This document shows, piece by piece, positions 2,855 through 14,352 of a stretch of 64,000 bases of DNA; position 1 is the stretch's first letter, and the number at the start of each line of letters is the position of its first letter. The DNA lies in the NCBI RefSeq assembly GCF_014696715.1, contig NZ_JACJQO010000011.1, positions 62,001 through 126,000 of the forward strand. The letters run 5' to 3'. A program made the position numbers and the translations under genes. Below the pieces are notes generated by a model, which was not told where the DNA came from, did no database searches, and was given only the letters and a program-made list of their open reading frames with translations. This DNA is from Pseudanabaena sp. FACHB-2040 (lineage in GTDB: Bacteria > Cyanobacteriota > Cyanobacteriia > Phormidesmidales > Phormidesmidaceae).

Positions 2855-4222
2855 TCACTTAATTACGCCGTTGAAATAACGCGAGAGAACTGGGTGTGAG
2901 TGCTTAGCATCATACCCAGTTCTTTCATCCTTCTGTTTCGCTGTAAGGCTAGCCAACAATCGCTCGTCTTCAGCTTTTGCCATTGGGATAAGAAACTGGT
3001 AGGGCGTGGCAAGATCTGCCAACATCTGCTCAAATTGAGCGAGGCTTACTTCTTGCCGTTCTACAGCCCCTAAACGCCGAAGATTCAATGTTTGGCTCAT
3101 AGCCTCCTGCTCCCCCACAATCGCAATCAGCGGAATTCTGCGTTTAGAGAGTTCTCGAATTTTCTTGCTAATTGTCTGATCCTGATTGTGACATTCCGCT
3201 CTGACATTAAGCTGCTGAAGCCGAGAGAAAATCGTTTCCGCCCAAGCAGATGCTTTATCAGAAATAGAGGCAATTGCAACTTGTGTCGGAGCAGCCCAAA
3301 CGGGAAGGATACCGCGATGGTGTTCTAATAAGATGCCAATCCAGCGCTCTAGTGAGCCTAAAATTGCTTGGTGCAGCATAACAGGACGCTCCAGTTCTCC
3401 CTGATCATTTACAAACGCTACCTCAAAGACTTGAGGTAGATTAAAATCTATTTGAAATGTACCGCACTGCCATGATCGCCCCAATTGGTCTTGCAAACTG
3501 ATTTCAAGTTTTGGACCATAGAATGCCCCTTCATTTGGAGCTAACTGGTAACTGTGTCCCAAAGCTTGAACGGCCTCAATTAAGAGAGACTCAGCACGAT
3601 CCCAAAGTTGATCGGAGCCAAGCCGTTGTTCGGGTCTGAGGGAAATCTGAAGGGAAAACTGCTCATAGCCAAAGGCAGCATAAACCTGCTGCACCATGTT
3701 GAGAAAATTGCTAATTGCATGCTGCACATCAGATTCTCGGCAGAAGATATGGGCATCATCTTGGATAAACTGTCGTAGTCGCATACAGCCCGATAATGTA
3801 CCCGAGAGTTCGTTGCGATGGCACATCCCAAATTCCATCAATCGCATGGGGTTCTCTCGATAGCTGCGCTTGTGGGACTGATAAATAGCAATGTGGGCAG
3901 GGCACGACATGGGTTTAAGCGCATAACTAGGATTGATGATGAATTGGGCTGATTCATTGTCTGCCTCCGCGTCTCCGCTGCCAACTACAAACATCCCCTT
4001 ACGAAATTTTTCCCAATGTCCTGAACGCTCCCAGAGTGATCGACTTAGAACAATGGGCGATCGCACTTCTTCAAACCCATGCGCTTGATACACCTGTCGC
4101 ATAAAGTCTTCAATGCAATGAAAAAGCCGTAGTCCCTGGGGATGCCAAAACACCATTCCTGGACTATGCTCCTCAAAGTGGAACAAGTCCATATCCCTTG
4201 CAAGTTCACGGTGATCTGCCAC
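2855..4222 (-). CDS. thrS: threonyl-tRNA synthetase lacking the TGS and editing domains
   Basis: Charges tRNA-Thr with threonine. At 455 aa it begins directly at the catalytic domain (ADHRELARDMDLFHFEE), so the N-terminal TGS and Ser-tRNA editing domains (about 240 residues in the full enzyme) are absent. Class II motifs and the zinc ligands are kept: Cys in MSCPAH, His in QDDAHIF and His in MLHQAILGS; the CHRNE motif is also present. The C-terminal anticodon-binding domain is intact, followed by an extra tail. I chose the GTG at 4222 because AGGAG (4231-4235) precedes it. A longer frame from 4312 would translate the terminator hairpin as protein. Two threonine-leader attenuators lie upstream. 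In Anabaena 7120 two ThrRSs exist, one of them stress-induced with impaired proofreading; whether this gene matches it is inference. Confidence 0.9.
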   Translation of the reverse strand: MADHRELARDMDLFHFEEHSPGMVFWHPQGLRLFHCIEDFMRQVYQAHGFEEVRSPIVLSRSLWERSGHWEKFRKGMFVVGSGDAEADNESAQFIINPSYALKPMSCPAHIAIYQSHKRSYRENPMRLMEFGMCHRNELSGTLSGCMRLRQFIQDDAHIFCRESDVQHAISNFLNMVQQVYAAFGYEQFSLQISLRPEQRLGSDQLWDRAESLLIEAVQALGHSYQLAPNEGAFYGPKLEISLQDQLGRSWQCGTFQIDFNLPQVFEVAFVNDQGELERPVMLHQAILGSLERWIGILLEHHRGILPVWAAPTQVAIASISDKASAWAETIFSRLQQLNVRAECHNQDQTISKKIRELSKRRIPLIAIVGEQEAMSQTLNLRRLGAVERQEVSLAQFEQMLADLATPYQFLIPMAKAEDERLLASLTAKQKDERTGYDAKHSHPVLSRYFNGVIK

Positions 4223-4252
4223 TTTAGTTTCTCCTGCTGTGTGAATTATCAA

Positions 4253-4288
4253 CAATAAAAAATCCCTCCAAAGCTTGCTTTGGAGGGA
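4253..4288 (-). terminator. gene-proximal attenuator terminator of thrS
   Basis: Perfect 12-bp inverted repeat, arms 4263-4274 and 4277-4288 (TCCCTCCAAAGC on either strand). On the minus strand it is followed at once by TTTTTTATTG. It lies between the second leader peptide and the thrS start codon, so as transcribed it would stop RNA before thrS. Its 5' arm contains CCCTCC, which can alternatively pair with GGAGGG at the end of leader 2 (plus-strand 4322-4327). Confidence 0.88.
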
Positions 4289-4315
4289 CAGATGAGCTGC
4301 ATGCGCAATCAATCG

Positions 4316-4387
4316 TCACGGCCCTCCTGGCGTGATGGTAGTGGTGGTGGTAGTAGTGGACATTGCAAGCGGTATTGGCAGCAACAT
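4316..4387 (-). CDS. threonine leader peptide 2 (gene-proximal)
   Basis: A 23-codon ORF starting at 4387, with AGGA eight bases upstream. After eight residues it reads MSTTTTTTTITPGGP and stops at TGA. Seven consecutive Thr codons plus an eighth (ACT ACT ACC ACC ACC ACT ACC ATC ACG) are a hallmark of leader peptides that sense charged tRNA-Thr, as in enterobacterial thrL. The final codons GGA GGG are the putative antiterminator strand. A ribosome that reaches the stop codon would cover them and let the terminator form. A ribosome stalled in the Thr run would leave them free to pair with CCCTCC of the terminator. An internal ATG at 4363 is an alternative start. Confidence 0.85.
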   Translation of the reverse strand: MLLPIPLAMSTTTTTTTITPGGP

Positions 4388-4403
4388 GAGCGCATTCCTA
4401 ATA

Positions 4404-4443
4404 ACACAAAAATATTGCCCCCCAGAGTTTGTCTGGAGGGCAA
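4404..4443 (-). terminator. promoter-proximal attenuator terminator of thrS
   Basis: Inverted repeat with arms 4415-4426 and 4432-4443 (12 bp with one G-U pair as RNA, 5-base loop). On the minus strand it is followed by TATTTTTGTG. It lies between leader peptide 1 and leader peptide 2. Its 5' arm contains CCCTCC (plus-strand ggaggg at 4435-4440), complementary to GGAGGG at the end of leader 1. Confidence 0.8.
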
Positions 4444-4476
4444 CTGAAGTAGTAAGACTGATGTCAGCGCAGCGCC

Positions 4477-4530
4477 TTACAACCCTCCTAAGGGAATAGT
4501 TCGGGTAGTCAGGGTGAGCGCTGCGTTCAT
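4477..4530 (-). CDS. threonine leader peptide 1 (promoter-proximal)
   Basis: A 17-residue ORF, MNAALTLTTRTIPLGGL, with four Thr codons within six positions and a TAA stop at 4477-4479. Its end (Gly-Gly encoded by GGA GGG, then one residue and stop) parallels leader 2, so the two units look like duplicates of the same design. No good Shine-Dalgarno sequence is seen before the ATG (CTCAAAATG), which is common in cyanobacteria. The GGAGGG (plus 4483-4488) can pair with the 5' arm of the following hairpin. It supports attenuation by threonyl-tRNA supply. Confidence 0.72.
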   Translation of the reverse strand: MNAALTLTTRTIPLGGL

Positions 4531-4559
4531 TTTGAGAAAGTTCTGTTTTGATATATCTT

Positions 4560-4588
4560 CTCTAACTCAATTCTCTAGCAGGTGTCAA
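4560..4588 (-). promoter_or_regulatory. candidate promoter for the thrS leader transcript
   Basis: On the minus strand a perfect -35 TTGACA (4588-4583) is separated by 17 bases from TTAGAG (4565-4560), a weak -10. The predicted start near 4553 would give a leader of about 330 bases holding both peptides and both terminators. No clear Zur-type palindrome was seen nearby. Confidence 0.55.
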
Positions 4589-4625
4589 GTACTCAGAAAA
4601 ACTAAACAACACCTCTAGTAAGCCA

Positions 4626-4796
4626 ATGTTAGGCCCAAGGGGTACACCCAAACCGGATTGTGCCCGGTTCCAATTCAGACTCTATAACGGCGAAGCTGCT
4701 CGTCCGAGTACCCGCACCAAGGCAAAATTCGATGCTGTGGGTGGGTGGCTACACATGCTTTTTGAGCAGTCCAGGACGGAGTTAGACCACGCCTAG
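4626..4796 (+). CDS. possible small protein, 56 aa
   Basis: ORF beginning MLGPRGTPKPDCARFQF and ending SRTELDHA, with a balanced, protein-like composition and an aromatic segment GGWLHMLFEQ. It fills the gap between the thrS leader (divergent) and the DUF3037 gene (convergent, overlapping by 4 bases). No ribosome-binding site was seen. It could be a real small gene or a remnant of a larger one. Function unknown. Confidence 0.28.
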   Translation: MLGPRGTPKPDCARFQFRLYNGEAARPSTRTKAKFDAVGGWLHMLFEQSRTELDHA

Positions 4797-5206
4797 CTCT
4801 TGCTGAGAGAGGCTGCTGGTGCCGGACGCACCATTGTTTTAAGCAAGTGTTCGATCACGGTCGATAGATTCTTGCACAAACCTGTGTGAACCCGCGATGT
4901 CTGAATGATGGTGCTGCGGGGGGCAACAATCCAATGGAACCGTTCTCTTTGCGGCAGTTGGCCAATTGGGCCAGCCTGCTCTCCCCCCGCGCAAATAATG
5001 GAGATGGCATCTAAGTAGCCCTGAACGGTTTCCACATCTAGGGTGGGGGCCAGGGCGGTGAGTCGTTGCTGATCGAGTTCAATCTGCGCTTCGAGAAATT
5101 TACGACTCGCGCACGACACGATCACCCCTACATTGATAAACTCTTCTCGCTCAACTCTGGGAACCACACGAATGATGGCGTAATCATAGGTGAAGTGATC
5201 GTGCAC
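4793..5206 (-). CDS. DUF3037 family protein
   Basis: 137-aa protein opening with the family hallmark YDYAIIRVVPRVEREEFINVGVIV. The rest is alpha-helical, with no membrane segment. DUF3037 genes are habitually paired with a HipA-like kinase gene. Here the upstream kinase gene ends 23 bases inside this one, so the two are translationally coupled and almost certainly act together. The molecular role of DUF3037 is not established. An antitoxin-like or regulatory partner for the kinase is possible but not shown by the sequence. Confidence 0.85.
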   Translation of the reverse strand: MHDHFTYDYAIIRVVPRVEREEFINVGVIVSCASRKFLEAQIELDQQRLTALAPTLDVETVQGYLDAISIICAGGEQAGPIGQLPQRERFHWIVAPRSTIIQTSRVHTGLCKNLSTVIEHLLKTMVRPAPAASLSKS

Positions 5207-5960
5207 GAATTGCCTCCTCTAAAAAACCACGGGGCGACTCTAGTCGTCTCAACAGGTACTCGATGTAAGCCTCGCGATGCTGCTGGATTTCGGTAAAGGG
5301 AGAGCCTTCTACCAGCCAGGTCTCGGGAATTTGATTAACGATGTGGGTAATGATCTCTGCCGTGAGTTGCGCTGTCATTTTGGCATCTGCCGCTGCAAGC
5401 TGGCTGGCAAAGCACAGCAAAACGTGGTCTTTGATGCCAGGGAAGGGGGCGTGGCTGCGCTCTAGGTAGTTGTTCCAAGTGTGGTGAAAACTGAGGGCCA
5501 CGCCGTGGTCAATCAGCCAAAGCCTGCGGTGCCACATCAGCATGTTGGTGTTGCGGGCTGTGCGGTCGATGTTGGTGACGTAGGCATCGAACCAGACAAT
5601 TGCCGAAGACAGCTCAGCATCGGGCTGCTGGGCCACGGGGTCGAAGGTGATGGAGCTAGGGAGGTAGTCGAGGGCAAGGTTAAGCCCCACACTGGCCCGG
5701 ATTAAATCTTGAATTTCAGGATCAGGCTCTGTGCGGGCCAATTCGGCATTGACCTCTACAAAGACAATTTCGGGCACCAGCAGCCCGACAGCCCGCGCGA
5801 TTTCCCCGGCAACGAGTTCGGCAATGAGGGATTTGGCCCCCTGACCGGCACCGCGAAACTTCAGCACATACATGCCATCATCATCAGCTTCCACAATCGC
5901 TGGAAGTGACCCACCCTCGCGCAAGGGCGTAACGTATCTTGTTGCAACAACTGTTCGCAA
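5184..5960 (-). CDS. HipA-like Ser/Thr kinase family protein
   Basis: 258-aa member of the compact HipA-like kinase family (PI3/4-kinase-like fold). Visible catalytic elements are Lys34 in MYVLKFRG (ATP-binding), Asp132 and Asn137 in NIDRTARNTN (catalytic loop) and Asp151 in LWLIDHGVAL (metal). It lacks the N-terminal Couple_hipA segment of the E. coli HipA toxin and is about half that protein's length. It forms an overlapping pair with the downstream DUF3037 gene. True HipA phosphorylates aminoacyl-tRNA synthetases; a synthetase gene lies just beyond, but any link is speculative. No HipB-like DNA-binding gene is present. Confidence 0.82.
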   Translation of the reverse strand: MRTVVATRYVTPLREGGSLPAIVEADDDGMYVLKFRGAGQGAKSLIAELVAGEIARAVGLLVPEIVFVEVNAELARTEPDPEIQDLIRASVGLNLALDYLPSSITFDPVAQQPDAELSSAIVWFDAYVTNIDRTARNTNMLMWHRRLWLIDHGVALSFHHTWNNYLERSHAPFPGIKDHVLLCFASQLAAADAKMTAQLTAEIITHIVNQIPETWLVEGSPFTEIQQHREAYIEYLLRRLESPRGFLEEAIRARSLHL

Positions 5961-12424: not shown

Positions 12425-14218
12425 CTATGCGTCTTTTTCTTTGGGTTCGTAAGTAGAGGCGACGTGAAGCTCTTTGAGCTGCTTCAGGTCTACACCCGAA
12501 GGTGCATTGGTAAGCAGACAGCGGGCCTGCTGGGTTTTGGGGAATGCGATCGCATCTCGAATCGACTCTTCGCCTACCAGCAGCATTACCAGTCGATCGA
12601 TGCCGTAGGCAATGCCGCCGTGGGGTGGGGTGCCGTATTCAAAGGCTTCTAGCAAAAAGCCGAACTTGTCGTGGGCTTCTTCGGTGGTCAGGCCGATAGC
12701 CTCAAACACCTGCTGCTGAATCTCGGGTTGATAGATCCGCAGGCTACCGCCGCCAAGTTCGTAGCCGTTAAACACCAGGTCATAGGCCTGGGCGCGAGCC
12801 GTCTTGAGGTCAGCGGTATCGTCTGGGTGGGGAGCCGTAAATGGATGGTGCAGGGCCTCTAAGCGCTTCTCATCCTCATTCCACTCAAACATGGGGAAGT
12901 CGGTGATCCAGAGCAGATTGAGCTGATCGGGGGGAATCAGGTTTAGCTCTTTAGCAATGGCTTGCCGCAGCCGGTCTAGCGTGGCATTGACCGTGTCTGT
13001 AGGGCCAGCGCCAAACAGCAGCAGATGACCATCGGCTGCCCCAGTGCGCTCCAGCAGCTCCTGCTTTTGCGCCTCGCTCAAGTTGTCTTTAATTGCGCCG
13101 ATGGTGTCGATGCTGCCGTCGCGCACCCGGATGTAGGCCAATCCCTTAGCCCCTGCCTCAGCGGCAATCTTAAACAGGTCGCCGCCTGGTTTAATACGAA
13201 CATTCGAAATGGCGTCGTTGCCGCCAGGGATGGGCAGCACTTTGACGGTACCGCCATCGGCGACAGCGCCAGAGAAGACCTTAAAGCCCGAATCTTTGAC
13301 CAGGTCAGAGACATTAACTAGCTCTAAGCCGTAGCGGGTATCGGGCTTGTCACAGCCGTAGCGCTCCATTGCCTCGGCGTAGGTCAGCCGGGGCAGGGGC
13401 AGAGGCAGATCAACGCCTTTGATTGCTTTGAAAATGTGGGCCACGAGCGCTTCATTAAGGCTCAGGATCTCATCCTGGCTCATGAAGCTCATTTCCATAT
13501 CTAGCTGGGTGAACTCGGGCTGACGGTCGGCCCGCAAATCTTCATCGCGGAAGCAGCGAGCGATCTGGTAGTAGCGGTCTAGCCCCGACACCATCAGCAG
13601 TTGCTTAAAGAGCTGGGGCGACTGCGGCAGCGCAAACCACTCCCCAGGATTAGCCCGCGACGGCACCAGATAGTCCCTTGCCCCCTCTGGGGTGGAGCGG
13701 GTCAAAATGGGGGTTTCAACCTCAACAAACCCCTCCTGATCTTCCAAGAAGCGACGGATGGATTTGATGATCTGGTGGCGCGTCTGCAGGTTGCTAGCCA
13801 TGCGCTCCCGGCGCAGGTCGAGGTAGCGATAGCGCAGGCGCAGGTCTTCGCGCACTGACTCGGTATCAGCTGTAGAGACCTGGAAAGGGAGCTGCTTACG
13901 AACTGCATTGAGCAGCACGATCTCGTCGGCGTAGATTTCGACTTCGCCAGTCGGCAGCTTGGGGTTGAGCGACTCGGGCGGGCGCTGGCTCACCCGTCCG
14001 GTAATGCGGACAACGTATTCGTTCCGCAGATGCTCTGCACTTGTATAGGAGTCGGGGGTCCGCTCAGGGTCGCTGACGATTTGCACAATGCCGGTGCGAT
14101 CGCGCAAATCCACAAAAACAACGCCCCCATGATCGCGGCGACGATCTACCCAGCCAAAGAGGGTGACGGTTTTACCAATGTGCTCTGCCTGGACTTGGCC
14201 GCAATAATGGGTTCGCAT
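12425..14218 (-). CDS. aspS: aspartyl-tRNA synthetase
   Basis: 597 aa, bacterial-type AspRS that charges tRNA-Asp. Order: OB-fold anticodon domain ([21 protein letters not shown]), class II core with motif 1 around [21 protein letters not shown], motif 2 [23 protein letters not shown], the bacterial GAD insertion, and motif 3 at the end ([23 protein letters not shown]-like). The start at 14218 (MRTHYCGQV) is the family start; the upstream ATG at 14245 adds nine non-conserved residues. It is followed by the adenosine deaminase gene region read in the same direction. The tRNA-Asp gene is 10 kb away. Confidence 0.97.
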
Positions 14219-14352
14219 GGTTCTAGAAAAACAGCTCGAAAGCAACGCGCTAACTTCAAAACCTTTCCATTATCGCGGATCATGGAACGGTTGAATTTGC
14301 TTTTTTGGAGGGTGCGGTCGCACAAGACCAATCCGACTCCCCCAGCCCCTTC

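Follow-up and report, generated by a model that had tools for sequence, protein, structure and literature searches.

Genomic Locus and Features of the thrS2 Region

The window considered here, a stretch of 64,000 nucleotides from Pseudanabaena sp. FACHB-2040, carries on its minus strand a gene for a threonyl-tRNA synthetase (ThrRS), hereafter thrS2, with two consecutive attenuator-like units in front of it. The first, unit 1, extends from 4530 to 4408 and unit 2 from 4387 to 4257, both on the minus strand, and in each of them a GGAGGG near the end of a short leader ORF is complementary to CCCTCC in the 5' arm of the terminator that follows. The neighbors of thrS2 in the window encode a DUF3037 protein, a HipA-like kinase and a manganese-catalase-like protein. 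The genes for the DUF3037 protein and the adjoining kinase (HipA_2) lie upstream of the attenuators on the same strand (4793-5960, minus), and a full aspartyl-tRNA synthetase gene is found 8 kb from thrS2 (12425-14245, minus). The features of the region are, in the direction of transcription (fractions refer to the 13 loci with close thrS2 relatives described below):

4561-4588, minus: probable promoter (TTGACA 4588-4583, 16-nt spacer, weak -10 GTTAGA 4566-4561)
4477-4530, minus: unit 1 leader ORF, MNAALTLTTRTIPLGGL and stop; equivalent leader in 13/13 loci
4483-4488, minus: unit 1 GGAGGG (codons GGA GGG), 5' strand of the antiterminator; present in 13/13 unit 1 copies
4435-4488, minus: unit 1 antiterminator GGAGGG:CCCTCC; minimum free energy (MFE) structure of the nascent segment, -18.2 kcal/mol, 6/6 pairs
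4480-4476 with 4456-4452, minus: possible inner helix of unit 1, GTAAG:CTTAC (pair listing)
4408-4444, minus: unit 1 intrinsic terminator of 13 pairs, stem 4444-4432 / 4426-4414, T-run 4412-4408 (terminator scan)
4316-4387, minus: unit 2 leader ORF, MLLPIPLAMSTTTTTTTITPGGP and stop, 23 aa; equivalent leader in 12/13 loci
4322-4327, minus: unit 2 GGAGGG, 5' strand of the antiterminator; GGAGGG in 11/12 copies, AGAGGG in locus L072
4282-4327, minus: unit 2 antiterminator GGAGGG:CCCTCC with a hairpin between the arms; MFE structure of the nascent segment, -17.1 kcal/mol, 6/6 pairs
4257-4289, minus: unit 2 intrinsic terminator, stem 4289-4278 / 4273-4262, T6 4262-4257 (terminator scan and folding)
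4231-4235, minus: thrS2 Shine-Dalgarno sequence AGGAG, outside both hairpins; GGAG in 12/13 loci, GAGGA in L075
2855-4222, minus: thrS2, threonyl-tRNA synthetase of 455 aa with catalytic and anticodon-binding domains, GTG start at 4222

The preliminary description of this DNA had dealt with unit 2, which proves to be real, and had missed the other unit (leader 4530-4477, terminator 4444-4414 and T-run). The seven consecutive Thr codons that it had reported are read on the minus strand as ACT ACT ACC ACC ACC ACT ACC, followed by ATC ACG CCA GGA GGG CCG TGA. GGA GGG is found where it had been placed (4327-4322), not directly before the stop but with the CCG codon intervening; in both window leaders one codon separates GGAGGG from the stop. 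The complementarity to CCCTCC (4287-4282, minus strand) and the T6 (4262-4257) hold exactly as described, and the supposedly perfect 12-bp hairpin (4289-4262) does have 12 pairs, the terminal one being G-U. The leader start had to be moved: the ATG at 4363 is internal, and ATG 4387, which gives 23 aa and whose region is kept in most relatives, is the more likely start. In most unit 2 leaders an AAGGA-like sequence stands before the start (by eye). The window's leader 1 holds only 4 Thr codons.

The TTGACA of the probable promoter is found by eye in 11/11 rows of alignment A3, and the two copies on Acaryochloris plasmids (see below) have CTGACA farther upstream and lack TTGACA at the corresponding place. 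A consensus promoter scan of the window did not pick up this TTGACA promoter (4561-4588). A terminator scan of the window alone returned 4 sites vs 2.9 in shuffled sequences, and from the window by itself the reality of the element would be less sure. An Rfam search of the window and a permissive one of positions 4200-4800 (E up to 10) returned nothing relevant, including no match to the enterobacterial Thr-leader covariance model and none to a T-box.

An Editing-Less Threonyl-tRNA Synthetase Beside the Housekeeping Enzyme

The synthetase GTG announced downstream of the hairpin in the preliminary description is the thrS2 start at 4222, backed by the AGGAG in front of it and, in loci L006, L007 and L074, by stop codons in frame at -15 to -27. 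A start at TTG 4312, which would lengthen the protein to 485 aa, was rejected, as it is not conserved and in-frame stops follow in the same three loci. The protein scores 449.6 bits against TIGR00418 (bacterial ThrRS; cut-off 383.65), covering profile positions 172-561 only, and a Pfam scan found the catalytic core and the anticodon-binding domain, no editing domain and nothing else. In an alignment, C107, H158 and H284 are kept at the positions that we take to be the zinc ligands of ThrRS. In locus L074 (G180:C5) an early in-frame stop in thrS2 leaves an open frame of 325 aa, and both leader units look intact.

A housekeeping ThrRS is also present in 11/11 thrS2 genomes checked, a set without the Acaryochloris chromosome; in one of these genomes it is a contig-end fragment only. 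In 2/11 of these genomes (G162:C55:28843-30234 and G182:C2:338381-339769) there is an additional, T2-like ThrRS that shares 55% identity with the housekeeping enzyme. In a maximum-likelihood tree of 30 rows, the 13 thrS2 rows form one clade (100/100) that does not group with the cyanobacterial T1 or T2 type and that shares one side of a 100/98 branch with proteobacterial ThrRS, apart from the T1 and T2-like rows, the latter having been chosen by their 55% identity to the housekeeping enzyme and not by name. As these 30 rows were chosen, 13 of them from 58 non-thrS2 loci, and the root serves for drawing only, the sister group of thrS2 is provisional. The 13 rows checked among those 58 loci, from Proteobacteria, Chloroflexi, Thermotogae and archaea, have open frames of 569-677 codons and are therefore not editing-less copies.

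Distribution of thrS2 and of the Tandem Units

Relatives of thrS2 with 73-86% protein identity are found in five named genome contigs, in other genomes of the class and on two plasmids. The gene occurs in 10/388 genomes of the same class at 1e-150, in 6/63 genomes of its own family and in 4/36 and 1/19 genomes of two other families; these samples overlap, and the counts take in the own genome where it was sampled. A search for more distant relatives at 1e-130, on the same 63 genomes as the family search, gave none that were new. Two copies reside on the plasmids pREC2 and pREC1 of Acaryochloris marina MBIC10699 (loci L094 and L095), both predicted to be conjugative. Considered together, the patchy distribution, the plasmids and the position in the tree suggest that thrS2 has spread horizontally.

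After removal of L068, L069, L070, L073 and L076, which are the contigs of L004, L005, L006, L007 and L008, 13 loci were compared. With a unit defined as [AG]GAGGG, one codon and a stop, then CCCTCC within 90 bases, unit 1 is found in 13/13 loci and unit 2 in 12/13, or 25 units in total; in L007 unit 2 is lost and a decayed trace is left. The test that the preliminary description had set itself, conservation of leader, GGAGGG and hairpin in relatives, thus comes out in favor of the element: leaders, GGAGGG and spacing recur in all 25 units, and GGA GGG is unchanged to the third base in 24 of them, the exception being the AGA GGG of L072 unit 2. The region upstream of the promoter does not align among the loci by eye. 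Locus L075, whose unit 1 has a weak T-run, aligns with a shift and was excluded from alignment A4 and from model R1, and it is included in the unit, folding, codon and shuffle counts; a relic in genome G200 (see below) is not among the 13 loci or 25 units.

A strict pattern (GGAGGG-N3-TRA ... CCCTCC ... GGRGGG), run on the 388 class genomes, is found at 17 places in 12 of them, and at none for the reversed control. Fifteen of these places are units before thrS2, covering 10/10 thrS2 genomes of the sample; neither of the two stray matches has a Thr leader. In the same 10 genomes the pattern missed 4/19 units, two ending in TAG, one carrying AGAGGG and one whose 3' arm is broken. With a covariance model of unit 1, 31 matches turned up in 25 of the 388 genomes. 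The ten strong ones are all unit 1 of thrS2, and the remainder comprises unit 2 of G182, the G200 relic and 19 weak matches, two of which are opposite-strand matches on known hairpins. Nine loci matched by the model were read, namely G182 unit 2, the G200 relic and seven others, none of the seven with a Thr leader. As judged from these genome searches, the motif is nearly exclusive to thrS2.

Coding Character of the Leaders

Threonine accounts for 79/156 of the last 12 codons before GGA in unit 1 and for 83/144 in unit 2, with 4-8 Thr per leader in 13/13 unit 1 copies and 3-9 in 12/12 unit 2 copies. The codons ACC, ACT, ACA and ACG interchange among loci, ACC and ACT making up 139/162 of all Thr codons, and outside Thr and Gly-Gly the peptides are variable. 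Pairwise differences over the seven codons before GGAGGG, which are not independent events, show a peak of synonymous changes in the reading frame, with 147 in frame vs 66 and 51 out of frame for unit 1 and 70 vs 38 and 26 for unit 2, and fewer non-synonymous ones (209 vs 303 and 273 for unit 1; 117 vs 153 and 157 for unit 2). The runs of Thr codons are of low complexity, yet this codon choice argues against a simple repeat and for frames that are probably translated.

Alternative RNA Structures

When the nascent segment from GGAGGG to CCCTCC is folded, the antiterminator helix is in the MFE structure of 25/25 units, 24 of them with 6/6 pairs, at -17.1 to -26.4 kcal/mol; this is partly so by construction, because the units were picked for both arms. 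The predicted terminators range from -10.2 to -27.0 kcal/mol. Compared with 300 dinucleotide shuffles per segment, and calling exceptional a segment for which 15 or fewer shuffles fold as low, 17/25 antiterminator segments are exceptional (7/13 in unit 1, 10/12 in unit 2; mean z -2.86). The 8/25 unexceptional ones include the window's two, with 30/300 shuffles as low for unit 1 and 26/300 for unit 2. If folding includes the 3' arm of the terminator and leaves every base free, the terminator equals or surpasses the antiterminator in 20/25 units, the antiterminator being favored in the other 5/25, all of them unit 2; the model therefore requires the antiterminator to win kinetically, through the usual head start of whichever structure forms first. 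In unit 1 the inner helix GTAAG:CTTAC is fully paired in 10/12 rows, the other two having one G-U exchange and one mismatch, and it appears in the free prediction of 8/13 copies.

Two cases, L075 unit 1 and the G200 relic, bear on the compensatory changes that the preliminary description had proposed to look for, while the core pairs are nearly invariant; classical covariation is accordingly thin, with few tests, and the case leans instead on the relic, on position and on exclusivity. In L075, matching bases have been added to the unit 1 leader as well as to the 5' and 3' arms, so that each of the alternative helices is longer. In the relic (G200, contig C64, L119) thrS2 is broken, with only residues 2-57 and 80-126 detected and stops within them; both leaders are kept, MITRFCLATTTVTTTTTYLGEV before its stop and a second, longer one rich in Thr, and different bases make up the antiterminator of unit 1 (AGAGG.GUGA:UCAC.CCUCU). 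The weak unit 2 terminator of this relic (-7.5) fits a decaying locus. The two-state logic put forward earlier is consistent with the folding, and it is retained with changed sequence in this diverged relic; pairing that appears to be kept despite changed bases is seen in the one relic and in L075. In sum, the element is well supported by comparison and moderately by folding.

A Proposed Tandem Attenuation Mechanism

We consider it highly probable, from the comparison of sequences and predicted structures, that a backup ThrRS lacking the editing domain is controlled by two serial transcription attenuators, which are ribosome-mediated and sense the charging of Thr-tRNA. RNA polymerase would start upstream of 4530 and a ribosome would follow it on leader 1. 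With ample Thr-tRNA, the ribosome would reach the leader 1 stop and cover GGAGGG, so that CCCTCC would pair with the terminator 3' arm and transcription would end near 4408. With scarce Thr-tRNA, it would stall at the Thr codons, and the free GGAGGG would capture CCCTCC to form the antiterminator; polymerase would then read through to unit 2, where the same test would be made again before thrS2. Two leaky terminators in series would give a low background and a steep response. As there are two switches, each combining a Thr-rich frame with a stop signal, thrS2 should turn on only when Thr-loaded tRNA is short, and the natural trigger would most likely be failure of the housekeeping ThrRS (e.g., in zinc shortage) or shortage of threonine.

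The interpretation as threonine attenuation offered in the preliminary description is supported, and it was incomplete in that it lacked the second attenuator in series, the patchy and partly plasmid-borne nature of the paralog, and the Streptomyces lividans precedent discussed below.

A Possible Role of Zinc Shortage, and Other Explanations

The trigger has its own candidate reading, compatible with the attenuation model, according to which the whole serves to respond to zinc shortage: the housekeeping ThrRS would lose its zinc, Thr-tRNA would fall as a result, and the attenuators would read that. We regard this as a tentative proposal, possible though short of probable for the element as a whole. 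It draws on the plasmid neighborhoods, both of which hold zinc or metal genes. On pREC1 thrS2 is accompanied by cobW, a cysS copy, folE, a dihydroorotase gene, a metallothionein gene and an ArsR/SmtB regulator gene, and by an ORF for which NCBIfam gives Zur as the best match (E 2.3e-21, short of the model cut-off); on pREC2 it is found near metal ABC transporter genes, the gene for the binding protein of a zinc ABC transporter and a Fur-family gene. Upstream of the pREC1 cysS copy, which is divergent to thrS2, lies a palindrome (ATGATAATCATTCTCAT, within L095:2265-2950) that resembles a Fur/Zur box; a Zur-box-like pattern in the Pseudanabaena genome itself gave 9 matches vs 8 for the control on each strand, and so did not discriminate. 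One report describes threonyl- and cysteinyl-tRNA synthetase genes as flanking homologs of the zinc protein gene zepA (PMC10957091). Together with the metal genes beside the plasmid copies, this marks zinc shortage as a likely trigger, at least in certain hosts. In Anabaena, low zinc brings about a change to a second ThrRS, there via Zur (PMC4787780). Against the reading stand the three residues of thrS2 aligned with zinc ligands and the window itself, where no zinc gene set was found among the ORFs scanned (23/34 of at least 230 aa plus one shorter): 20 further window ORFs belong, where anything matched, to unrelated families, including one P-type cation ATPase. At the non-plasmid loci, ORFs were read within about 2 kb, and two of them, both in L072, were scanned.

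It is improbable that the leaders are drug- or metabolite-sensing arrest peptides and thrS2 a drug-induced resistance copy against a ThrRS inhibitor. A divergent ThrRS that is patchily distributed and partly plasmid-borne would suit such a role, and a drug acting on the housekeeping ThrRS would trip the switch anyway; however, the leader peptides are variable except for Thr and Gly-Gly, which is not what an arrest peptide looks like, the window has no ORF above 916 aa and thus no long gene of NRPS/PKS type close by, and the plasmid neighbors indicate metal supply instead of drug resistance.

Still less credit is due to the idea that the leaders act at translation, via Rho or via mRNA decay instead of intrinsic termination. 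In its favor, a possible GTG start overlaps the stop of leader 2 (GUGA), GGAGGG looks like a Shine-Dalgarno sequence, and the T-run of L075 unit 1 is weak; yet each of the two hairpins in the window has its T-run, the AGGAG of thrS2 lies about 26 nt beyond the end of hairpin 2 and is thus not masked by it, and the frame that would continue into thrS2 is broken by the stops at -15 to -27 mentioned above for three loci. From the GTG in this GTGA, a frame runs through the terminator into thrS2 in L004, L067, L071, L072, L094 and L095, and not in the window, L006 or L074.

That the hairpins are ordinary terminators of the upstream DUF3037 gene (ending at 4793), with accidental Thr ORFs, is hardly credible: this gene does share the strand of thrS2 in the window, intergenic terminators are common and the window's terminator count is near the shuffled mean, but the near-exclusive link of the motif to thrS2 and the recurrence of leaders, GGAGGG and spacing in 25 units below sequence that is not alignable by eye speak against it, and at the plasmid loci L094 and L095 the hairpins are not terminators of an upstream gene, because the annotated neighbor is divergent with no ORF of at least 90 aa between and both units are present.

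Relation to Known Systems

Ribosome-mediated attenuation is classical, and the thr operon of E. coli and other enterobacteria is controlled by a Thr-leader attenuator. The two attenuators proposed for thrS2 have in common with it the Thr-rich leader, the intrinsic terminator, the alternative antiterminator and the sensing of Thr-tRNA charging; they differ in having no Rfam match, a synthetase instead of biosynthesis as target, two units, a six-base GGAGGG:CCCTCC pairing and another phylum as host. Bacillus thrZ is a second ThrRS gene. Its T-boxes bind the tRNA directly, whereas at thrS2 the ribosome and the leader peptide would do the sensing. A T-box survey lists two to three adjacent T-boxes before thrZ, likewise a ThrRS gene under several serial tRNA-charging attenuators, and none in the 13 cyanobacterial genomes that it covered (PMC2494555).

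A Thr leader before thrS has a precedent outside cyanobacteria, since attenuators have been proposed in S. lividans at thrL-thrS and alaL-alaS (PMC8079986). What is common is a proposed leader peptide before an aminoacyl-tRNA synthetase gene, thrS included; the Streptomyces case differs in that its leader has only two Thr codons, one hairpin is noted to be without a uridine-rich sequence and a single leader is listed. Tandem attenuators and leader ORFs are also described for Salmonella mgtCBR (PMC3641672), where other genes are concerned, whereas the thrS2 units are alike, both reading threonine. With the T1/T2 pair of Anabaena (PMC4787780), the system shares a conditional second ThrRS defective in editing beside a constitutive one; Anabaena thrS2 is, however, repressed by Zur according to the same source, and the window protein is without the whole editing domain and, in the tree, lies apart from the T1 and T2-like rows. 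According to an analysis of leader genes from 2016, there were no reliable data on attenuation in cyanobacteria (PMC4833913). Among the matches listed in the open-access literature, which did not include Lopatovskaya et al. (2010), there was no leader-peptide attenuator before a cyanobacterial synthetase gene. New here are the phylum, the two same-amino-acid attenuators in series and the mobile setting.

Implications

A broader proposal, whose chances we judge to be evenly balanced, is that the locus represents a mobile cassette made of a promoter, two attenuators that respond to the same signal, Thr-tRNA charging, and together form a steep AND gate, and a near-proteobacterial ThrRS without editing domain. 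Such a cassette would be spreading among cyanobacteria, also on conjugative plasmids within metal-supply islands, would rescue cells from failure of the housekeeping ThrRS, and would constitute the first well-supported case of ribosome-mediated attenuation in the phylum. If the switch is functional, transcription and translation in cyanobacteria are coupled closely enough to permit attenuation of the classical kind, and the tandem arrangement would amount to a compact natural sensor, with little leakage, for the charging of a single tRNA. It may then be tRNA charging, and not Zur alone, that summons spare synthetases, and a module of sensor plus enzyme may travel on plasmids.
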